A stretch of DNA of 43,916 nucleotides from a virus, in the IMG/VR virus record IMGVR_UViG_3300036799_000069, positions 1 to 43,916 of that record; one strand, given 5' to 3'. Below are positions 1 to 43,916 of this stretch, piece by piece. Positions within the stretch are counted from its first letter, which is position 1; each line of letters begins with the position of its first letter. Both the position numbers and the translations under genes were made by a program. The notes under the pieces were generated by a model, which saw nothing but the letters and a program-made list of their open reading frames with translations, was not told the origin of the DNA and did no database searches.

Positions 1-146
1 AGGGGGGACAGGGGGGACACTGTCCCCCCCTACTCGCGAAAATCCGTGACCGTCAAGTCAGGATTGACCAGGTAGAGAGAAATTGTTTGTTTCGCGTTAT
101 GAGCTACTTCGCAAGGGGGGGGGAGATGTCCCCCCTTGTCCCCCCT
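1..146. repeat. Left copy of the 146-bp terminal direct repeat
   Basis: These bases recur at 43771-43916. Bases 21-146 are identical in both copies (126 bp). The only difference is base 20 (C here, G at 43790), which is the central base of a palindrome with GGGGGGACA and TGTCCCCCC arms. The repeat means the molecule is circular in the assembly or has short direct terminal repeats. The copy ends inside a run of TGTCCCCCC repeats, which suggests an assembly overlap in a circular genome rather than a natural end. Confidence 0.9.
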
Positions 147-198
147 TGTCCCCCCTTTGTGCACACACCGTGAGTGAACCGGGGAGAGGAGCAAGATC
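1..198. other. Iteron-rich noncoding region, candidate replication origin
   Basis: No gene is seen here. The 9-mer GGGGGGACA occurs at 2-10 and 11-19, and its reverse complement TGTCCCCCC at 21-29, 127-135, 137-145 and 147-155. The last three are spaced exactly 10 bp, one helical turn. Inside this frame lie inverted repeats CGCGAAA (35-41) with TTTCGCG (90-96) and GTCAA (52-56) with TTGAC (64-68), plus an AT-rich stretch (about 76-100) and a run of nine G (115-123). Clustered iterons next to an AT-rich segment, just downstream of a replication ATPase gene in the circular map, are the usual layout of an iteron origin. Alternatives are a packaging site or the target of the FtsK-like translocase. 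The G runs could also form G-quadruplexes. Function is inferred. Confidence 0.55.
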
Positions 199-3119: not shown

Positions 3120-3482
3120 ATGGCAGAGCTACCTAAGACATTCAGCGAGGCCGGGTTTGCTACCGAGCCCGACCACCTCATGCACCTAGTGCTCACGTGG
3201 GCCGAACGCGGACTGTTGACCATGTCCGACGACTGGCGCAACCGTCGCGTTCGATTACTGGGCAATCGCATCAGCGAAGCCGCAGAGATGGCCGCCAACA
3301 ACCTATATCTACAGGGGCTGATCATGGTCACCTCGGCCGCTCTCCTCCTGCCCACGGGCGCTATCCGGACCACCGAAGCCGGCAGGCGCCAGCTAGCCGA
3401 GTGGGATATTCAAGTCGCTGGAGTAGCTGAGCCCGTCGCACCGACCGCACACACCCCAACCTGCCTAGACGACCAGGAATGA
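3120..3482 (+). CDS. Hypothetical protein with possible winged-helix character, 120 aa
   Basis: I choose the ATG at MAELPKTF because it follows the promoter and a GGTGGGGG stretch; an earlier in-frame ATG lies upstream of the -10. The sequence contains helical segments (HLMHLVLTWAERGLLTMSDDWRNRRVRLLGNRISEAAEMA) and later a hairpin-like GAIRTTEAGRRQLAEWD, which resembles the wing and last helix of small DNA-binding proteins. This is only a resemblance. Its own operator-bearing promoter is consistent with a regulatory gene. Confidence 0.6.
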   Translation: MAELPKTFSEAGFATEPDHLMHLVLTWAERGLLTMSDDWRNRRVRLLGNRISEAAEMAANNLYLQGLIMVTSAALLLPTGAIRTTEAGRRQLAEWDIQVAGVAEPVAPTAHTPTCLDDQE

Positions 3483-3592
3483 CGCACCATCCCCGAGTCA
3501 CGGTTGACCTGAAACACGTTGCAGGCCGCGGGTTCAACTCCCGCGATCGGGGCGAGTCGCGCGAAGTAAATATCGGAGGGAACATCAAGTAG
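3479..3592 (+). CDS. Hypothetical basic micro-protein, 37 aa
   Basis: ATG overlaps the stop of the previous gene (ATGA) with CAGGA just upstream. The product starts MTHHPRVTVDLKHVAGRGF and ends EVNIGGNIK. The middle (AGRGFNSRDRG) is what a translated tRNA T-arm looks like: the DNA reads GCGGGTTCAACTCCCGC. A full tRNA cannot be folded, so the coding reading is kept at low confidence. No family is recognised. Confidence 0.3.
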   Translation: MTHHPRVTVDLKHVAGRGFNSRDRGESREVNIGGNIK

Positions 3593-3607
3593 ACGAAACC
3601 CTACAAG

Positions 3608-3623
3608 TGCCGGTGCACCGGCA
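3608..3623. promoter_or_regulatory. Perfect 16-bp palindrome upstream of whiB
   Basis: TGCCGGTGCACCGGCA is a perfect 16-bp palindrome located 65 bases before the whiB-like start. No T run follows, so it is not a classic terminator. It could be an operator for the WhiB gene. It differs from the ACACGTGT family. The rest of 3593-3687 shows no convincing gene. Confidence 0.35.
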
Positions 3624-3687
3624 TGGGTCCTGGTTAGTCAAGCCACCGACGCGACTCCCCAACAACCACTCACAGAACGGTAAGCCA

Positions 3688-4233
3688 ATGGACTGGAGGG
3701 ACAAAGCCTCATGTCGGGATGAGGACCCAGAGATTTTCTTTCCCATGCCCGCGGACCACGTGACGGAAGCCAAGGCACTGGCCGTGTGCGCCACCTGTCC
3801 CGTCAAGGCGCTTTGCCTTGCTTATGCGATGGAGCTGGTCATTCCTTACGGTATCTTTGGTGGGGTGACGCAGCGGGTCAGGGAGGGCATGAGGTACGCG
3901 GCGGCACCGGAGCCGGTGCCGGCTGAGGAGACGAAGCGGTGCGCGCGGTGTAACACGCGTAGGCGGGTGAGTGAGTTCACTCCGAATGATCGGACCCCGG
4001 ACGGTTTGACGATGCGGTGCACTGAGTGCAATAAGAAGACGAAGCGGTGGGCGGATAACGCGGCGTTGCGTAACCCGGGTGAGCTGCCTGAGGGTCGGCA
4101 GTGTAACCGGTGCAGTCAGGTTAAGCCGTTGGATGCGTTCAAGAAGGATAGCCGTAAGCCGTTGGGTCGGCAGTATTCATGCACTTTGTGTGAGTCGGCG
4201 CGGGCGCGTGACGCTTACCACGCGAATAAATGA
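3688..4233 (+). CDS. WhiB-family regulator fused to two zinc ribbons
   Basis: A 181-residue protein. Residues 1-70 are a WhiB domain: Cys 9, 34, 37 and 43 in the [4Fe-4S] pattern, then GIFGGVTQRVREG (55-67), the conserved turn and basic segment. WhiB proteins bind an Fe-S cluster and the primary sigma factor and redirect transcription in actinobacteria; phage versions can alter host gene expression. Unusually, two further modules follow: CARC...CTEC (85-114) and CNRC...CTLC (139-168), each a Cys4 zinc ribbon of the type often attached to HNH or endonuclease VII-like proteins. The start ATG fits the WhiB length, and an upstream in-frame GTG would add only non-conserved sequence. The fusion is the odd feature. 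Confidence 0.85.
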   Translation: MDWRDKASCRDEDPEIFFPMPADHVTEAKALAVCATCPVKALCLAYAMELVIPYGIFGGVTQRVREGMRYAAAPEPVPAEETKRCARCNTRRRVSEFTPNDRTPDGLTMRCTECNKKTKRWADNAALRNPGELPEGRQCNRCSQVKPLDAFKKDSRKPLGRQYSCTLCESARARDAYHANK

Positions 4234-8106: not shown

Positions 8107-8159
8107 GGGCACACTGAACCCCCCTACCTATCGAATAGGTAGGGGGGTTCAGTGTGCCC
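8107..8159. terminator. Perfect 25-bp hairpin, bidirectional terminator
   Basis: Two 25-base arms (8107-8131 and 8135-8159) pair perfectly around the 3-base loop CGA. The stem contains a run of six C/G pairs and the outer GGGCACACTGAA segment. It lies where the rightward portal operon meets the leftward accessory block, so it can end transcripts from both sides. Actinobacterial terminators often lack a U tail. An arm this long and perfect is unusual for a phage. The stretch 8023-8106 holds no convincing gene. Confidence 0.8.
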
Positions 8160-8236: not shown

Positions 8237-8443
8237 CTATTCGGGGTCGGCCCGTGAGGTGACGGCTGTCTCTGCCGGATGTAGCTCTTTGCTCCAGCCG
8301 CAACGCGGGCAGTACTTCCAGCCATCCAGGGCCATGAACTCGTCACATACCCGTCCGGGCTCCCAGCACGAGCACCGCCAGTTCGTACACCCCGGCATGA
8401 AACCGTCTGGAAGCACTGGGGCTTCGGCGGTTGGTCGGTTCAT
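8237..8443 (-). CDS. Small zinc-binding protein, 68 aa
   Basis: Last gene of the leftward block. It contains CTNWRCSCWEPGRVCDEF and WKYCPRCGWSKELH, six Cys in total, with CPRCG as a zinc-knuckle-like end. Its start overlaps the stop of the upstream DNA-binding gene by ATGA, so it is co-translated with it. No family is recognised. Confidence 0.6.
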   Translation of the reverse strand: MNRPTAEAPVLPDGFMPGCTNWRCSCWEPGRVCDEFMALDGWKYCPRCGWSKELHPAETAVTSRADPE

Positions 8444-8745
8444 CGGACTCCCAGCTCCCGTTCGATCTCGCGTGTCTTATCGGCCGTTGCGTCTGCTTTA
8501 GCCGGTGGATGCTGTGCGATCCAGAGCGCTACGGTTGTCTCACTGTCGTAGAGGCGCGCGTCGCGCGGCCCCGTGGTGCCGACGTGCTCGAACGTCCGGA
8601 CGTCATCCGGGCCGACCTCGACCCGCCTTCCGCGGTGGCGGGCGATCCATGACCGGACCGTGGCGGGCGTGTTGAAAGCCCGTCGCCCGTCCGGGTATTT
8701 GAGGTTTTCGGCGATCTGTGCGGCTGTCCAGCGTGGCCCGGTCAT
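8440..8745 (-). CDS. Predicted DNA-binding protein with two HTH-like segments, 101 aa
   Basis: I start it at MTGPRWTAAQIAENL because a clear ribosome binding site (GGAAGGGGG) precedes it. The first segment RWTAAQIAENLKYPDGRRAF and NTPATVRSWIARHRGRRVEV resembles excisionase/MerR-type winged helices (AAQIAE...TVRSWI), and a second, similar pattern follows (SETTVALWIAQHPPAKAD). Such small proteins regulate transcription or act as recombination directionality factors; no integrase is seen here, so regulation is more likely. Operator-like site S3 lies 32 bases upstream. Confidence 0.65.
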   Translation of the reverse strand: MTGPRWTAAQIAENLKYPDGRRAFNTPATVRSWIARHRGRRVEVGPDDVRTFEHVGTTGPRDARLYDSETTVALWIAQHPPAKADATADKTREIERELGVR

Positions 8746-8776
8746 GGTGGCCCCCTTCCGTTGGCTAGTCGGAGCG

Positions 8777-8787
8777 TACACGTGTGG
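8777..8787. promoter_or_regulatory. Operator-like site S3
   Basis: TACACGTGTGG with the perfect core ACACGTGT (8778-8785). Read on the minus strand it leads into TACGCT, a TAnnnT -10-like box, about 27 bases before the start of the DNA-binding protein gene. It belongs to the same site family as the other gene-gap palindromes. Confidence 0.45.
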
Positions 8788-9058
8788 TTAGCGTGTGCCG
8801 GTGATGGCGCGGCAGATGGCAGCGGACTGTGCTTTCATGTGGGCGATTTCCGCGTCGGTGTACGGGTGGTCACCGGGGTCGGATATTCAACCCTAAGAAC
8901 AAGCCACGGGCGTGGTCGTCATCGCTGCGCACGGACCTGGGGTTGTCGCTACCGGTTAGGACGTTGGTGTCTTTCCATGGGTACTGTGCCCGGTAGCCCG
9001 CTTCGATTGCGACCTCATCACGGCCACTGCCGGAACTTCCGAATAGGAACTCGAACAT
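8788..9058 (-). pseudogene. Small gene with an apparent frameshift near its 3' end
   Basis: A well-initiated frame (GAGGAGACAGC then ATG at 9058) gives MFEFLFGSSGSGRDEVAIEA and continues through SVRSDDDHARGLFLGLN to a stop at 8870. A different frame with no usable start then reads DPGDHPYTDAEIAHMKAQSA and AICRAITGTR, ending at 8788. The second part is protein-like (helical, good codons), so the two look like one gene of about 88 residues broken by a one-base shift around 8878-8890. A real mutation, a sequence error or a programmed shift are all possible. Confidence 0.45.
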
Positions 9059-9067
9059 GCTGTCTCC

Positions 9068-9232
9068 TCAACGCTTCGTCTTGCCGAAACCGCGGCACGT
9101 CCTGCACGCACCGATGTGCCTACCTCGGTTGTCGACGTCGCTGCCGCTCCCTCCGCATGTCCCGCACGTGGAACCGCTCAGGTCGTCGTGATAGACGGAC
9201 TTCTTGCCGTCCGCTCTGTTATTCCTTACCAT
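9068..9232 (-). CDS. DnaJ-type zinc-finger micro-protein, 54 aa
   Basis: ATG preceded by GAGGAGACCGGC, a strong site. The sequence has CGTCGGSGSD and CRTCRGFGKTKR, two CxxCxGxG-like motifs as in the DnaJ central zinc domain, with about 20 residues between them. One such unit can bind one zinc ion. It ends 9 bases before the start of the next leftward gene. Role unknown; an RNA- or protein-binding adaptor is plausible. Confidence 0.7.
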   Translation of the reverse strand: MVRNNRADGKKSVYHDDLSGSTCGTCGGSGSDVDNRGRHIGACRTCRGFGKTKR

Positions 9233-9242
9233 GCCGGTCTCC

Positions 9243-9311
9243 TCACCTAGCTGCGCAGTATGCTGCGATCAGCACAAGCAGGAAGAGTGGCGCCGCAACG
9301 GCCACATGCAC
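9243..9311 (-). CDS. Putative membrane micro-protein, 22 aa
   Basis: GTG start giving MHVAVAAPLFLLVLIAAYCA then AR, one transmembrane helix. An AGGTGAG stretch lies just upstream. The frame extends upstream without a better start (DATQGALAALGEW) to a stop near 9354, so the start is uncertain. It fits the run of small membrane genes but is at the limit of what can be supported. Confidence 0.35.
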   Translation of the reverse strand: MHVAVAAPLFLLVLIAAYCAAR

Positions 9312-9350
9312 CCACTCACCTAGGGCGGCGAGAGCGCCTTGCGTGGCGTC

Positions 9351-9530
9351 TTAGCCATGACTCCTCCTGGTGTGCAGGATTGCAGTGATTGCGGTAAGGA
9401 CGAACACGCAGCCGAACATCAACGCCCCACGCGGACTGTGTCCGATAGCCATCAGGCAAGTAGACAGCGCCCAAATTACGGCATTGAACTGCCATAGTCG
9501 CGCTAGCTTCTGGCTTTGCGTTCTGCCCAT
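9351..9530 (-). CDS. Two-helix membrane protein, 59 aa
   Basis: I start it at MGRTQSQKLARLWQFNAVIW because promoter S4 ends 6 bases upstream, giving a leaderless message. Two hydrophobic segments (NAVIWALSTCLMAIG and GALMFGCVFVLTAITAIL) flank a short HSPR turn, with basic ends (LHTRRSHG). Both ends are therefore probably cytoplasmic. No family is recognised. Confidence 0.6.
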   Translation of the reverse strand: MGRTQSQKLARLWQFNAVIWALSTCLMAIGHSPRGALMFGCVFVLTAITAILHTRRSHG

Positions 9531-9536
9531 GAGACC

Positions 9537-9565
9537 ACACTGCCACATGTGTGGCAGTGTGTCAA
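9537..9565 (-). promoter_or_regulatory. Leaderless promoter with embedded operator S4
   Basis: On the minus strand TTGACA (9565-9560), a 17-base spacer and CAGTGT (9542-9537) precede the ATG (9530) by 6 bases. The spacer is almost filled by the palindrome whose plus-strand form is TGCCACATGTGTGGCA (9541-9556). A protein bound there would block RNA polymerase. Confidence 0.6.
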
Positions 9566-10024
9566 CTAGCGGTGTATCCGACCCGTGAACGTCCCCGAAA
9601 TCCGAGCACCACCACCACGCCCACACAGCATCACCAAAGCGATCAAGGCCAACACACCGATAGCCGCCGGCATCGCACTAGCCGCCGCGTGACTGACACT
9701 CACCGCCGCGCTACTCACCGCATCCACGATCCACACAACCCCCGTGATAACGCACGCCACAGCACCACAACCCAGCACGCCCGCCGCCCAGCACAGCGGG
9801 TTCCGGTACCACTCCCCGCGAGTTTCCTGCTCACTGAGCACGCGGGCTGGTATGCGGTGCAGGCCATGCGACTCCAGCACGTATTCGGGACTGTTGAGCC
9901 TCGGTGTGTACTCCTGGCGCACTTGGAGTTGACCGCTGTGGGCTCTCGCCGACGCCGCTAGGCGCTTAACGCGGTCAGCGATAATGGCACCATCGATGTC
10001 CGCTAGATCCGTTTCGATGCTCAT
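9566..10024 (-). CDS. Membrane protein with cytoplasmic N-terminal domain, 152 aa
   Basis: A soluble first half (MSIETDLADIDGAIIADRVK to RGEWYRN, residues 1-74) is followed by two transmembrane helices (about 77-100, LCWAAGVLGCGAVACVITGVVW, and 118-136, AAIGVLALIALVMLCG) and a Gly/Arg-rich tail. The ATG overlaps the stop of the upstream gene. The layout resembles small phage membrane proteins thought to act in host interaction or exclusion, but no named family is recognised. Confidence 0.65.
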   Translation of the reverse strand: MSIETDLADIDGAIIADRVKRLAASARAHSGQLQVRQEYTPRLNSPEYVLESHGLHRIPARVLSEQETRGEWYRNPLCWAAGVLGCGAVACVITGVVWIVDAVSSAAVSVSHAAASAMPAAIGVLALIALVMLCGRGGGARISGTFTGRIHR

Positions 10025-10227
10025 TGCTTGCTCGTATCGCGTACGTCTCCGAAGACAACGGCGGCCGACTTTGACGCCAACGGCATCGCCCTGGCCATAA
10101 TTTCCTCTACCGTCTGAGGTATAAACCGAGGGTTGCCATTGTACGATTCGGTGACCTCATAAGAGGAGACCTCACGTTTGCCGCTGTAGTCATCGAATAC
10201 GCTCACGGTGATGCTGATCTCACCCAT
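10021..10227 (-). CDS. Hypothetical protein, 68 aa
   Basis: A strong site (GGAGGAGAGC) precedes the ATG. The first half is beta-strand-like (ISITVSVFDDYSGKREVSSY) and the second half helical (TVEEIMARAMPLASKSAAVV). Soluble, with no motif I recognise. It is coupled by a 4-base overlap to the membrane protein downstream, so both are likely made together. Confidence 0.65.
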   Translation of the reverse strand: MGEISITVSVFDDYSGKREVSSYEVTESYNGNPRFIPQTVEEIMARAMPLASKSAAVVFGDVRDTSKQ

Positions 10228-10266
10228 GCTCTCCTCCTGGCGGTGGCGATACTTCCCATAACCTGA

Positions 10267-10296
10267 CTATGCGCGACGAACAGACAGCGCGCATAG
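10267..10296. terminator. Hairpin downstream of a leftward gene
   Basis: CTATGCGCG (10267-10275) pairs with CGCGCATAG (10288-10296) around a 12-base loop. It starts 2 bases after the stop of the 49-residue leftward gene, the expected place for a terminator or attenuator before the next leftward gene pair. There is no U tail. Confidence 0.45.
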
Positions 10297-10297
10297 A

Positions 10298-10447
10298 TCA
10301 CCCCTTCGGTCTCATCGGAATCAGCGCCGCGTGGTGCAGGTGACCATGCGCCAGCATGTCCTCAACGATGGCCAGCGCTGGCATCAGATAGCCGTGCTGT
10401 AGCTGAAACCTGATGTCCTCTAACTGGTGTTCCTCGGCAGTTGTCAT
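10298..10447 (-). CDS. Hypothetical small protein, 49 aa
   Basis: The ATG lies 5 bases after the -10-like TAGACT of promoter S5, so the message is probably leaderless. The sequence MTTAEEHQLEDIRFQLQHGY then LMPALAIVEDMLAHGHLHHA is helical and His-rich towards the end. No family is recognised. The promoter-operator directly in front is the main support for the gene. Confidence 0.55.
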   Translation of the reverse strand: MTTAEEHQLEDIRFQLQHGYLMPALAIVEDMLAHGHLHHAALIPMRPKG

Positions 10448-10450
10448 GGC

Positions 10451-10588
10451 TCAGTCTACAACACGTGTTGCGGCGCGCTTAACGGCGGGCCATAGTTTGC
10501 CCCGGCACCACTTCGGCCGCGCGTGCCAAGTCAGCACAGCGTCAACACTCCGACACAGCGCAGCGAGCCGATCAACGTGACGACACAT
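10451..10588 (-). CDS. Hypothetical basic protein, 45 aa
   Basis: Follows the YdjM-like gene by 5 bases, start ATG with GGTGATA upstream. The sequence MCRHVDRLAALCRSVDAVLT and WHARPKWCRGKLWPAVKRAA is basic with Cys and Trp residues. Its end runs through operator S5 and the -10 of the next promoter, a compact arrangement that is unusual for a functional gene. Kept at moderate confidence because of coupling to the preceding gene. Confidence 0.4.
   Translation of the reverse strand: MCRHVDRLAALCRSVDAVLTWHARPKWCRGKLWPAVKRAATRVVD
10453..10470 (-). promoter_or_regulatory. Leaderless promoter with operator S5
   Basis: CAACACGTGTTG (10459-10470) is a perfect 12-bp palindrome. On the minus strand it abuts TAGACT (10458-10453), a good TAnnnT -10, and the ATG follows after 5 bases. 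A TTAAGC about 18 bases further upstream could serve as a weak -35. Confidence 0.6.
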
Positions 10589-10593
10589 CGCTA

Positions 10594-11220
10594 TCACCGC
10601 CCGCTCAACGTGAACACCGCGGACACGATCGGCGTGAGCAAACCCAGCATCGCCAGGCCGATCACACCCGACAGCAAAAACAGGACCGGCACCACATAGA
10701 ACCGCTCCGCTGCACTGTTCGTGGAAAACAAGCCAACGGCGTGGCGCCGCCACACCTCCCGATAACGGAGGTAGTTGTAGACCGCCGACAGTGGCACGCC
10801 AGACGGCGTCAGACTGTCTGCTAGTACGTGACTGGCCGTACCCAACGTGACGGCCGCGCCGAACCACAACGCCATACCGGCGATAGGCGGCATCAGTGAC
10901 AAAGCCACCGCCACCAACAGGCCCGCCAGGACGCACCACTCCAGGCAATGCGACGGGCCCCGGTGCACATCGCCCCGCGCTTTGTCCTTATCCGTGCGGA
11001 ACATCCGATAACCCAGATGCCCCGTACCCCGCACCAACGCGGCACCGGGGTGCATGTGCCCCTTGAACCGTGGATGATCCAGGTCATTCCACGTCGATGT
11101 CCACACCACCACGGGTGGGGCCGCGAGCATGACCATTGTGGGCGCGTGCATGAGGAACGCGCACTCCTCTAACCCAAGCGCTACGGGTGTCGCCGCCGCG
11201 TAATGCCCCAGCCACATCAC
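10594..11220 (-). CDS. YdjM-like membrane-bound metal-dependent hydrolase
   Basis: A 208-residue protein of the YdjM/DUF457 type. Conserved metal-binding motifs are HY near the start (His 6), DLDHP (residues 46-50), HRGPSH (86-91) and GTASHVLADSLTPSGV (127-142), placed between four or so transmembrane helices (e.g. CVLAGLLVAVALSLM, FYVVPVLFLLSGVIGLAMLG). E. coli YdjM is an SOS-induced inner-membrane protein. The exact substrate of the family is not settled, with lipid or membrane turnover suspected. The start overlaps the FtsK-like gene stop, so the two are made together, which suggests a common envelope-related job. Confidence 0.8.
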   Translation of the reverse strand: MMWLGHYAAATPVALGLEECAFLMHAPTMVMLAAPPVVVWTSTWNDLDHPRFKGHMHPGAALVRGTGHLGYRMFRTDKDKARGDVHRGPSHCLEWCVLAGLLVAVALSLMPPIAGMALWFGAAVTLGTASHVLADSLTPSGVPLSAVYNYLRYREVWRRHAVGLFSTNSAAERFYVVPVLFLLSGVIGLAMLGLLTPIVSAVFTLSGR

Positions 11221-13028
11221 CGCCGGTCCTTTTCACGGACAACGCTGGGCCGGTTTGCTGCCCACTTCTCCAGGTCGACCAGTCGATATCGCGCTGGCTG
11301 ACCCGGTACGGGCCGCTCCACAGGGTCAGGGAACGTGGCGTCCCGGTCACGGGCGTTACGCAGCGTCTTCACCGCCAGGGCGAGCCCGCCAGCAGCGTCG
11401 GTCAGCGTGACCCCGTCCTCAACGATCTCGCCCTCCAGCGCGGGCAGGAGCATGAGGTAGGGAGGCAGCGAGGCAGCGTCGCGCGTTTCCGTATGGTCCG
11501 CGGGTTCTGTCACGCGTTCAGAGGGGTACCTCACGGGACCTGCCTCATCCGTTCGAGGGAACGTTGAGACGGTGCCCGACATGGCGTACGCACGGGCGTC
11601 TTCCTCGTCGGTGAGCATCACCTGCACCGGGGTTGCTTCACCGTCAGCGACGACGTGGACCCGACCGCGGTGCATGGACCGCTTCGGGTACCGGCCCCCG
11701 ATCTTGCATTCGGGGGCCAGCATGTTCCACGTGGAAACGGTGGCGCGCCCTAATACTCGGGTGGACATGTTTTCGCGAGCGGCGGTGCCACCGATGGCTT
11801 GGGCGGTGAGTTTCTGTCCGATCGGGATGACGTGGACGCGCCCTTGCCGGCCCATGGCCATTGCCCGACCCAACGCTGCCAGTGATGGTGGCTTAGCGGG
11901 GTCGCCGGGTTCTTTGATAGAGCGCCAGTACGCGGCCAAGTCTTGCTCTAGGGTGTTTAGCTCTTCCGCAACGACGGCGAGGCGTGGCCCGACTAGTGCA
12001 GGGTCGACATTGCCGCGGATGTCAGCGTGAGCGCTGATTGTTCCGAACCGTTCGTCTATCTCCCCGGATAACCACAGTAGGGCCTCATGTATCTCCTGAG
12101 GGGATGCCGCGTATCGCACGTTGGGGAGGCCCTTGCACCACGCTTGGGATACTTGCTTGCGATCGAGGATGAGGACTAGGCCACCGCCGTGGAGTATTTG
12201 CATGATGAGTGCCCGCGCAGCCACGGACTTGCCGGCGTTGGTGGCCATGCTGAAACCGACGTGGGGGGCGTCGGCATCAAGGTCTAGGCCGTAGGGTGTG
12301 TCTCGTGGTGCTAATCCGAGTACGGGTCGCCCATCGGGGGCCATCGCGACTAGCGCACGAATAGCGGGATCGGCGAACGTGACTAGGTCACGTGGTGCGG
12401 GCGCTGGTGTCAGTTCCATGTAGGGCCGTTCGCCGCGTAGCTCGAAGTGGGCGGACGGTGAGGTGAGGCCGATGCGTCGGGCGACTAGCCGCGCTAGTGT
12501 TTTTTCTTGCTGGTCGGTCGGTGAGAACGTCAGCGGTAGGTAGATGCGGCTTGGTCTTTCCTCGACGTCCACGGGTATGTGTATCCACGTCCGGGGGTCG
12601 AGTGCGTAGCGGGCGTCTCCGAGCTTCTGCGCCAGTGTTTCCGCTAGGGGTGCGACGATCTCTTTGCGGTGCGCGTAACGCCGGGACTTCTCAACGATCC
12701 ACCACGCGGTGATCAGGAGGGCGATCCACAAACATACGCGGATAGTGTCAATGGTTGCCGCTGCACCGACGATGAGACCGTAGACCGTGAACGCCGTAGC
12801 AATGATGATGAGGTTGCGGATACCTGACCGGCGCGCGTGGGAATAGTGCGCCCACCGCGACGCGTGACCAGTGTCAGTGACAGCCCTAGTCCCGTGATGG
12901 CGCCACCGTGCGTCCGTGCGCCGCTGCCCATCCAACGGGCGACCACCCACGAACCGGGCCGCATAAACGGCGGCCATTGTGTGCTTACGGGGGGACTGTA
13001 TAACGGCTTTCCGTGTGCGTAATAGCAT
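11217..13028 (-). CDS. FtsK/SpoIIIE-like DNA translocase
   Basis: 603 residues. A basic N-terminus is followed by two transmembrane helices (about 71-91 and 95-112), then a RecA-fold motor: Walker A MATNAGKS (261-268), a LVLILDRK strand (284-291), and Walker B LAVVAEELNTL (350-360). GRQGRVHVIPIGQKLTA (393-409) is the typical FtsK sensor segment. The last 65 residues (LTDAAGGLALAVKTLRNARD to ARYRLVDLEKW) look like a MerR/excisionase-type winged helix, standing where FtsK carries its DNA-recognition gamma domain. Plasmid TraB proteins use this design to move double-stranded DNA after recognising short repeats. In a phage it may act in DNA transfer, segregation or injection (inference). The ATG is preceded by GGGGAGTG. 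Confidence 0.85.
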   Translation of the reverse strand: MLLRTRKAVIQSPRKHTMAAVYAARFVGGRPLDGQRRTDARWRHHGTRAVTDTGHASRWAHYSHARRSGIRNLIIIATAFTVYGLIVGAAATIDTIRVCLWIALLITAWWIVEKSRRYAHRKEIVAPLAETLAQKLGDARYALDPRTWIHIPVDVEERPSRIYLPLTFSPTDQQEKTLARLVARRIGLTSPSAHFELRGERPYMELTPAPAPRDLVTFADPAIRALVAMAPDGRPVLGLAPRDTPYGLDLDADAPHVGFSMATNAGKSVAARALIMQILHGGGLVLILDRKQVSQAWCKGLPNVRYAASPQEIHEALLWLSGEIDERFGTISAHADIRGNVDPALVGPRLAVVAEELNTLEQDLAAYWRSIKEPGDPAKPPSLAALGRAMAMGRQGRVHVIPIGQKLTAQAIGGTAARENMSTRVLGRATVSTWNMLAPECKIGGRYPKRSMHRGRVHVVADGEATPVQVMLTDEEDARAYAMSGTVSTFPRTDEAGPVRYPSERVTEPADHTETRDAASLPPYLMLLPALEGEIVEDGVTLTDAAGGLALAVKTLRNARDRDATFPDPVERPVPGQPARYRLVDLEKWAANRPSVVREKDRR

Positions 13029-13034
13029 GGTGAT

Positions 13035-13328
13035 TCACTCCCCGACGTCACTAGCTGAGTCGACAACGGCCTGCGACGCGCTACCAAGGGCATCAGCGCC
13101 AGCTCGCGCGTACGTGTGCACCGTCGTCTTCGGCCAGCCCGTGGCGGCCTCAATCTCACGCACCGACATGTGATGACACAGCGCCAGCATGATCGCGTTG
13201 ACGGCTTCCTGCTCCGCGTCCCGGCGCTGTTTGGCTATCCGTCCGGCTTCGATGAGATCCGCGACGTGATCGGCCGGGTTGACCTCGCGTCCGAGGAAGT
13301 AGCGGACGGCTTGGGGGGCGGTCATCAT
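13035..13328 (-). CDS. Helix-turn-helix protein, 97 aa
   Basis: First gene of the leftward block, just upstream of the FtsK-like gene. Residues about 50-75 (HHMSVREIEAATGWPKTTVHTYARAG) form a resolvase/sigma-4-like HTH, preceded by a helical region (GREVNPADHVADLIEAGRIA) and followed by an Ala/Ser tail. MM starts at 13328 or 13325. It may regulate its own divergent promoter region, which holds two operator-like sites, or act as partner of the translocase. It is the best candidate for the leftward regulator. Confidence 0.75.
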   Translation of the reverse strand: MMTAPQAVRYFLGREVNPADHVADLIEAGRIAKQRRDAEQEAVNAIMLALCHHMSVREIEAATGWPKTTVHTYARAGADALGSASQAVVDSASDVGE

Positions 13329-13367
13329 GAGTGTGGGCCTCTCGTCGTCCCGTTTTAGGACGCAAGC

Positions 13368-13404
13368 GTGCCACATATGTGCACGGAGCGGCAACACGTG
13401 TCAC
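13368..13404. promoter_or_regulatory. Divergent control region with two operator-like sites S6/S7
   Basis: GTGCCACATATGTGCAC (13368-13384, core CACATATGTG) and GCAACACGTGTCAC (13391-13404, core ACACGTGT) lie 23 bases apart, about two helical turns. They sit between the leftward HTH/FtsK genes and the rightward protease-capsid operon. One bound regulator could thus control both directions. CATAGTGT at 13440-13447 may hold the -10 of the rightward promoter. Confidence 0.55.
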
Positions 13405-37398: not shown

Positions 37399-38216
37399 TG
37401 ACCAACGCAATAGATACAACCCTACTGGACGGCTTGGTGCTCAAACAGGGGGGACACGACAGCCCCGACGACGGCCTCTGTCTCATGGAAGCGGTCGCCT
37501 ACGTTCGAGGCATACCACACACAGACAACCCAGGATGCGTGTCTCCAGTTCTCTCGCAAATGGGTAGACGGATAAACGATCTACTGCCTGACGAGAGACG
37601 ACAATCTCTCATTCCTCTCATCCCTGCACTGCCGGGGACCGTGGACGACGGGTACGACGAAGCCCGCAGTTACCTCGCCCTGGACTGGCTCCTGCGGACA
37701 TGGCTGCCGACGTGGCTAGATCTCGCACCTGGCTGCAACGCCATCGCCGCGCAATTACGTGAGGTCGGCGAGATAGTTGATATCGCAGCGGCGAAGCGAG
37801 TCTTTCCGTTGGTCCGAGCGGCCCGAGAGCAAGCGGCTGCCGCTTGGGATGCCGCTTGGGATGCCGCTGGGGCTGCCGCTTGGGCTGCCGCTGGGGCTGC
37901 CGCTTGGGATGCCGCTGGGGATGCCGCTGGGGCTGCCGCTGGGGATGCCGCTTGGGCTGCCGCTGGGGCTGCCGCTGGGGATGCCGCTGGGGCTGCCGCT
38001 GGGGCTGCCGCTGGGGATGCCGCTTGGGCTGCCGCTGGGGCTGCCGCTGGGGATGCCGCTTGGGCTGCCGCTGGGGATGCCGCTGGGGCTGCCGCTGGGG
38101 ATGCCGCTGGGGCTGCCGCTGGGGATGCCCTGCAACCGACAGTGGATGCACTACAACTATCGGCCATCGATCTCTACCGACGTATGGCCATCGCCGGAAA
38201 GGAGAACTCCGCATGA
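37395..38216 (+). CDS. Conserved phage protein with 24-copy tetrapeptide repeat
   Basis: 273 residues. Residues 1-148 form a conserved helical domain (GGHDSPDDGLCLMEAVAYVR, GCVSPVLSQMGRRINDLLPD, DEARSYLALDWLLRTWLPTW) seen in many actinophage proteins of unknown function. Residues 149-244 are 24 copies of the four-residue unit Ala-Ala-(Trp/Gly)-(Asp/Ala), encoded by 12-bp DNA repeats; a short tail (LQPTVDALQLSAIDLYRRMA) follows. The repeat would form one long Ala-rich helix of variable polarity. Starts MM; GAAAGGTGC precedes. Length of the repeat may vary between isolates. Confidence 0.75.
   Translation: MMTNAIDTTLLDGLVLKQGGHDSPDDGLCLMEAVAYVRGIPHTDNPGCVSPVLSQMGRRINDLLPDERRQSLIPLIPALPGTVDDGYDEARSYLALDWLLRTWLPTWLDLAPGCNAIAAQLREVGEIVDIAAAKRVFPLVRAAREQAAAAWDAAWDAAGAAAWAAAGAAAWDAAGDAAGAAAGDAAWAAAGAAAGDAAGAAAGAAAGDAAWAAAGAAAGDAAWAAAGDAAGAAAGDAAGAAAGDALQPTVDALQLSAIDLYRRMAIAGKENSA
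37839..38126. repeat. 24 tandem copies of a 12-bp unit
   Basis: Each unit reads GCCGCTkGGGmT, where k is T or G (Trp or Gly) and m is A or C (Asp or Ala). Only these two positions vary, so each unit is one of four types. Read in order: WD WD GA WA GA WD GD GA GD WA GA GD GA GA GD WA GA GD WA GD GA GD GA GD. A three-unit order GA-GD-WA recurs, which suggests growth by duplication of longer blocks. All six frames are open through the array. Confidence 0.95.
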
Positions 38217-43770: not shown

Positions 43771-43916
43771 AGGGGGGACAGGGGGGACAGTGTCCCCCCC
43801 TACTCGCGAAAATCCGTGACCGTCAAGTCAGGATTGACCAGGTAGAGAGAAATTGTTTGTTTCGCGTTATGAGCTACTTCGCAAGGGGGGGGGAGATGTC
43901 CCCCCTTGTCCCCCCT
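43771..43916. repeat. Right copy of the 146-bp terminal direct repeat
   Basis: Matches 1-146 except base 43790 (G against C at base 20). It starts 10 bases after the stop of the replication gene and carries GGGGGGACA at 43772-43780 and 43781-43789, and TGTCCCCCC at 43791-43799, 43897-43905 and 43907-43915. With the left end it means one iteron region present once per circular unit. Confidence 0.9.

Follow-up and report, generated by a model that had tools for sequence, protein, structure and literature searches.

Why should a 44-kb siphophage of actinobacteria, in which no plasmid functions are recognised, yet carry a full, membrane-anchored translocase that apparently reads DNA? The question is raised by a gene at 11217..13028 on the minus strand of the viral record IMGVR_UViG_3300036799_000069, whose entire 43,916 nucleotides are called the window below. 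A sequence-only reading had described the product as an FtsK/TraB-like translocase with two membrane helices and a MerR-type tail, and had proposed that the tail might recognise a cluster of short repeats (GGGGGGACA) in the phage DNA.

The translocase gene and its motor domain

The gene is a single ORF with an ATG start encoding 603 amino acid residues, and was assigned to the pRL2-11 family of FtsK/HerA-superfamily translocases from the ORF itself, from full-length relatives in plasmids and in IMG/VR, and from a TcpA/FtsK fold. It lies on the minus strand, as do the other genes of its block and the protein segments given below with coordinates. The AlphaFold2 model, built from a profile alignment of 28 full-length relatives (mean pLDDT 82.8), starts with a long helix pair and a mixed domain, continues with the motor up to residue ~489, and closes with a small domain that is joined to it by a disordered linker. 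The top solved structures found with Foldseek are TcpA (E 4.0e-15) and FtsK (E 4.5e-15), and the motor domain (residues about 236–489, 11562..12323) is aligned by VIA-align with TcpA (6o1x, Z 27.2 over 261 residues) and FtsK (6t8b, Z 25.1); a fold missing from the VIA listing was not counted as excluded. Both Walker motifs claimed earlier, Walker A at residues 261–268 and Walker B from about residue 350, are present. Walker A (MATNAGKS, 12225..12248) keeps the GKS with Lys267 and Ser268 while its first Gly is changed to Met, and G266, K267 and S268 are invariant in 28 relatives; Walker B (residues 350–358, 11955..11981) ends in VVAEE (E355, E356) plus N358 and is likewise invariant in these relatives. 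Moreover, Q405, R418 and R424 of the motor are conserved. The Pfam match to FtsK_SpoIIIE (PF01580; E 0.0011, 19 bits vs a cut-off of 24) falls below the curated threshold and is real, and a PHROG FtsK/SpoIIIE-like match was found at E 3e-4, the category of which is ‘moron, auxiliary metabolic gene and host takeover’. The modelled RecA fold, the Walker A and B motifs and the conserved arginines place the protein among the predicted motors of the FtsK/SpoIIIE superfamily.

N-terminal to the motor there are two predicted membrane helices (residues about 64–87 and 89–112, 12693..12839; hydropathy 2.23 and 1.69), with hydropathy peaks at residues 73–91 and 93–111 and model helices at 64–87 and 89–136. 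The hydropathy peaks, the model helices and the TcpA/FtsK fold thus bear out the proposal of two membrane helices in front of an FtsK-type motor.

Relationship to plasmid proteins

The translocase matches 145 plasmid records, 21 of them over at least 80% of its length, and nearly all are from Actinomycetota. The plasmid relatives, which are annotated as pRL2-11, DUF87, FtsK or Tra, are 30–35% identical over about 95% of the length (30–37% across the family comparison), and a genome scan gave 41 further actinobacterial contigs with family members, many of which are plasmid-sized. In the alignment of 28 sequences many columns are invariant, those of the tail included. Judged by its collinear membrane segment, motor and tail, the protein is assigned to the plasmid pRL2-11 family, which is a widespread yet unstudied family of plasmid translocases with a MerR-type tail; no demonstration of a transfer function for any pRL2-11-family protein was found in the literature searched.

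The neighbours of the gene in plasmids include genes for DUF2637 (pPR2, pRL2 and L018), Replic_Relax and, in pRL2, a GntR regulator. In addition, many Streptomyces plasmids have, after the long gene, one or two bare-motor paralogues (about 260–330 residues) that lack the Walker A lysine; at the plasmid loci L016, L029, L033, L034, L042 and L055 the motif reads TGGGSTT or GGGAT. These tandem paralogues look catalytically dead, and a ring mixed from active and inactive subunits is conceivable. In pRL2 itself (L097, 10322-12252) the translocase is split, the motor being the annotated pRL2-11 and the tail the next small ORF, presumably by a frameshift or a sequencing error.

Several plasmids also have repeats at or near the gene. 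Short DNA repeats lie inside the linker-coding part of the translocase gene in L019 (7455-7527), L027 (7333-7529) and L046 (7602-7807), and these are possibly recognition sites. Dense GG(N)G(R)ACA- or GGAAC-like clusters occur in L002 (5249-5462), L018 (5011-5353), L021 (8137-8378), L022 (8813-8999) and L035 (12306-12520), some of them within the coding sequence of an upstream membrane protein gene. When a clt-like repeat common to the family was sought near the gene, repeat clusters turned up in many plasmids, but the motifs differ among them, several are coding, and control phages also have clusters.

Phage copies and their descent

Among 2.9 million viral contigs in IMG/VR, the long translocase form occurs in three, that of the window included, and the copies in the other two (L006 and L007) are 58–62% identical to the window copy. 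One of these relatives is an assembled circle of 115 kb (127-bp exact end overlap). It has portal and tail genes, and its terminase shares 70% identity with a terminase of the Amycolatopsis plasmid pAmyja1. The other (49 kb) matches the circle at about 90–95% identity for the greater part of its length and overlaps the end junction of the circle. A search for further phage members via the YdjM gene, the neighbour of the translocase gene described below, found none. In the motor-domain tree the three long forms from phages group as a single clade (100/100) on a long stem beside the copy of the Pseudonocardia plasmid pPSED03 (91/90), and this grouping suggests that the gene entered from plasmids. 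The short soluble phage forms, in Dagobah and others, form a separate clade without membrane helices and tail. Between L006 and L007, dN is 0.146 and dS 0.378 for the translocase, and 0.01 and 0.174, respectively, for ydjM, dN being well below dS; the translocase is under purifying selection.

The inserted block and its neighbours

The translocase gene lies in an inserted minus-strand block of about 5 kb (8237..13397) between the portal and head protease genes, which are adjacent in seven relatives of the window phage (L057-L060, L065-L067). Its stop codon overlaps the start of a gene for a YdjM-like membrane protein (PF04307, E 3.4e-9; 10594..11220) as TGATG. The pair is present in all three phages with the long form, the ydjM of the window being 58–59% identical to the two others, and directly downstream of ydjM there is a small conserved ORF of about 50 residues (10451..10596), 52% identical over 50 residues to those in L006 and L007, so that the order of translocase, ydjM and small ORF is kept in all three. 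Directly upstream of the translocase gene, a small protein with a helix-turn-helix is encoded (13035..13397), for which weak HTH matches only were obtained (IclR HTH, E 0.002) and which is likely a regulator. Two further small genes of the block (9566..10227), recognised from the gene list and sequence, have no plasmid relative; the 152-residue product of one (9566-10024) has a C-terminal hydrophobic segment. A repeat search found a 25-bp perfect inverted repeat (8107..8159), a probable bidirectional terminator that would close the block. No target-site duplication was found at the block ends, and the base composition of the block is not distinctive. Neither Pfam nor plasmid searches found DUF2637/Spd-like partner genes in the window, and a 266-residue multi-helix protein gene upstream in L006 and L007 has no plasmid match.

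In the related phage L063, a tyrosine recombinase is encoded on the minus strand (3269-4168) in the same slot between portal and protease, a position that therefore seems to be a hotspot of insertion. Pfam hmmscan of the 59 window proteins at E 1e-5 detected no ParA, ParB, integrase or relaxase, and thus an extrachromosomal prophage state is unsupported. The negatives for ParA, integrase and resolvase from the genome search are weak, since the same search missed the terminase, which hmmscan finds; the conclusion is therefore based on the hmmscan. Pfam likewise detected no type IV secretion genes among the window proteins.

The C-terminal tail and the short repeats

The motor is followed by a disordered linker (residues 496–536, 11421..11543; pLDDT below 50) and a predicted winged helix of the MerR/excisionase type (residues about 541–598, 11235..11408), delimited from a separate model and its Foldseek and VIA matches. 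For this model, residues 536–603 were folded alone with 27 relatives (pLDDT 79.8). The Foldseek matches are almost only MerR/excisionase-type winged helices (E 0.04–1, probability up to 1.0), among them CarH, BldC, BmrR, RdfS and the mycobacteriophage Xis, together with Nu1-like/small-terminase domains. The VIA-align Z values reach 7.2, which is under the comfort line of Z 8, and the matches are consistent in kind; the modest E-values are due to the shortness of the domain, which is conserved across all full-length relatives. As nearly all matches are DNA-binding winged helices of one superfamily, the MerR-type reading of the tail stands, in agreement with what had been predicted from the sequence.

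The proposed link of this tail to the repeats is disfavoured. GGGGGGACA occurs in 13 exact copies in the window vs 0.64 expected, and 11 of these belong to one locus, which was assembled at both ends of the contig and lies some 11 kb from the translocase gene. The terminal repeat of 146 bp (window 1-156 and 43771-43916) has a single mismatch, in the middle of the palindrome GGGGGGACA-N-TGTCCCCCC, and both copies are probably the same origin-like locus assembled at each end. This locus follows a DUF3987/primase-polymerase gene. The tail recognition segment (KTLRN-RDRDA-FPDPV) is invariant in both phage relatives, in which GGGGGGACA is found once in 115 kb and not at all in 49 kb, and the same TGTCCCCCC pairs, a tandem motif, occur in 11 unrelated viral contigs, all without a member of the translocase family, twice at primase/helicase genes (inside a PriCT_2/AAA_25 gene in L086 and beside a VapE-like gene in L090). 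GGGGGGACA was therefore rejected as the candidate target and is probably not the DNA site of the tail. From the position at primase genes, the occurrence in contigs lacking the gene and the relatives lacking the repeats, we infer, short of proof, that the GGGGGGACA repeats look like replication iterons. TGTCCCCCC/GGGGGGACA clusters in the unrelated viral contigs L084, L085, L086, L090, L091 and L094 appear to be a recurrent iteron type. A search of the block and its flanks gave no clt-like cluster of repeats. Elsewhere in the window (37835-38129) there is a 12-bp tandem array of 24.6 copies, which encodes repeated LPLG(M/L)P.

Possible function of the cassette

Taken together, the sequence comparisons and models identify a membrane-anchored motor with the fold of dsDNA translocases, of plasmid descent, with a DNA-binding-type tail and intact catalytic residues. 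It probably moves or positions DNA at the membrane, and its cargo may be phage, plasmid or host DNA. We give about an even chance to the reading that a plasmid-family membrane dsDNA translocase was captured as a phage accessory cassette for spreading or clearing extrachromosomal DNA. A pRL2-11-family gene would have been captured from an actinobacterial plasmid and would be carried between the portal and protease genes as a self-contained cassette of regulator, translocase, YdjM-like protein and small ORF. At the membrane or septum, the translocase would assemble as a hexamer, be loaded onto particular DNA by its winged helix, and then pump or pull dsDNA. Its most likely job would be as in the plasmid relatives, spreading or clearing extrachromosomal DNA, of the phage or co-resident, across the septa that separate hyphal compartments or cells. 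The catalytic residues are kept, whereas the Walker A lysine is lost in the tandem plasmid paralogues, and this was counted for the reading, as were the full-length plasmid relatives, the TcpA/FtsK fold, the tail fold on its disordered linker, the membrane helices, the tree, the insertion, the ydjM pairing and the dN and dS values. Counted against it are the altered Walker A, the sub-threshold Pfam match, and the lack in our searches of clt-like repeats and of ParA, integrase or relaxase. Segregation of phage DNA, or its transfer from cell to cell, may be a task of the translocase, a transfer role being plausible. The more specific version, in which the phage would send its own dsDNA genome between compartments or cells without virions, with the tail choosing a phage site and the YdjM-like protein as partner, is in our judgement quite improbable.

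Other explanations have to be weighed against plasmid-type spreading or clearing. Instead of moving the DNA of the phage, the motor and its YdjM-like partner might target, at the membrane, DNA that enters the cell or belongs to the host, as an accessory gene for defence, exclusion or host takeover. A self-standing minus-strand block that brings its own HTH gene, in the slot filled by an integrase in L063, is typical of accessory genes, the PHROG category of the distant FtsK match points the same way, and HerA-type motors, which occur in defence complexes, are found further down the fold list. However, the closest folds are TcpA and FtsK and not HerA, the block has no nuclease or SIR2/DUF4297-type partner, and the relatives, genes of plasmids, have DUF2637, Replic_Relax or GntR genes as neighbours, so we consider this explanation unlikely. 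A segregation or replication-end protein, which would anchor replicated phage genomes at the membrane or clear concatemers with the tail reading a phage site, could draw on the FtsK architecture, on the shorter, soluble forms known from Dagobah and further phages, and on the FtsK-like gene of the Streptomyces phage Geonosis, for which the authors suggest a role in replication (PMC11536984). This too has a low probability in our view: no related phage checked has the gene between portal and protease, its place is outside the replication region, the soluble forms are the separate clade described above, and replication iterons account better for the repeat cluster. It is very unlikely that the gene was acquired only recently and does nothing for the phage, a passenger, as might be thought from its rarity in viral contigs, because the open frame is kept, dN is well below dS over three diverged phages, and the gene pair is conserved.

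The capture of a translocase whose type otherwise belongs to plasmids of the Streptomyces group, as read here from gene content and descent, suggests that machinery by which plasmids transfer DNA has been taken over by some phages. In Streptomyces plasmids a single protein is known to transfer dsDNA, and there are plasmid-phages, such as pZL12, that have a transfer locus. A phage of the present type would connect the spread of phages with that of plasmids in mycelial hosts, and its compact cassette is accessible to experiment. Furthermore, the finding draws attention to the widespread plasmid translocase family with the MerR-type tail.

Comparison with known systems

The likeness to TraB proposed from the sequence holds for the architecture; membership of the TraB family proper is not supported. 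The TraB/Tra proteins of the Streptomyces plasmids pIJ101, pSVH1 and pWTY27 have the same two membrane helices, FtsK motor and C-terminal winged helix; two N-terminal membrane helices are reported for TraA of pWTY27 (PMC3583192), and the steps that correspond to hexamer formation, site-specific loading and dsDNA pumping are experimental for pSVH1 and pWTY27 (PMC3583192; PMC12857230). However, TraB is a separate sequence family. The motor match of pIJ101 Tra is remote (BLASTP E 0.005; hhalign probability 94%, in the motor only), and the HMM of the translocase family does not find pIJ101 Tra at E 1, so that the sequence kinship to TraB is weak. In addition, the pIJ101 Tra tail matches Pfam MarR_2, another winged-helix subtype than the MerR/Xis type seen here, and no clt-like repeats were found by the window gene. 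In pIJ101, tra is followed by spdA and spdB, and Spd proteins are required for spread within the mycelium (PMC12857230).

The pRL2-11/‘DUF87’ plasmid proteins (pRL2, NC_007927; pPR2, NC_019291; pPSED03) are collinear over the full length, with membrane segment, motor, linker and MerR-type tail. Unlike these copies, which are often beside DUF2637/Replic_Relax genes and in Streptomyces have tandem bare-motor paralogues, the phage copy is single, is paired with ydjM and has MATNAGKS as Walker A. TcpA of pCW3 from Clostridium perfringens is the best structural match of the motor, but the identity is 17%; its hexamer is described as FtsK-like and perhaps moving dsDNA (PMC12857230). Of the type IV secretion genes expected as partners of a TcpA/VirD4 coupling protein, Pfam found none in the window. 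The closest parallel in known biology is the Streptomyces plasmid-phage pZL12 (NC_013420). This phage, too, has an FtsK-like gene in its genome (gp071), and its plasmid transfer and lytic phage cycle were studied according to the title of the report. pZL12 has ParA/ParB, of which none were found in the window phage, and its gp071 was rejected as a relative of the translocase (hhalign probability 2.4%). In its presumed manner of working the translocase is most like TraB, TcpA and FtsK, and its sequence places it in the pRL2-11 family.
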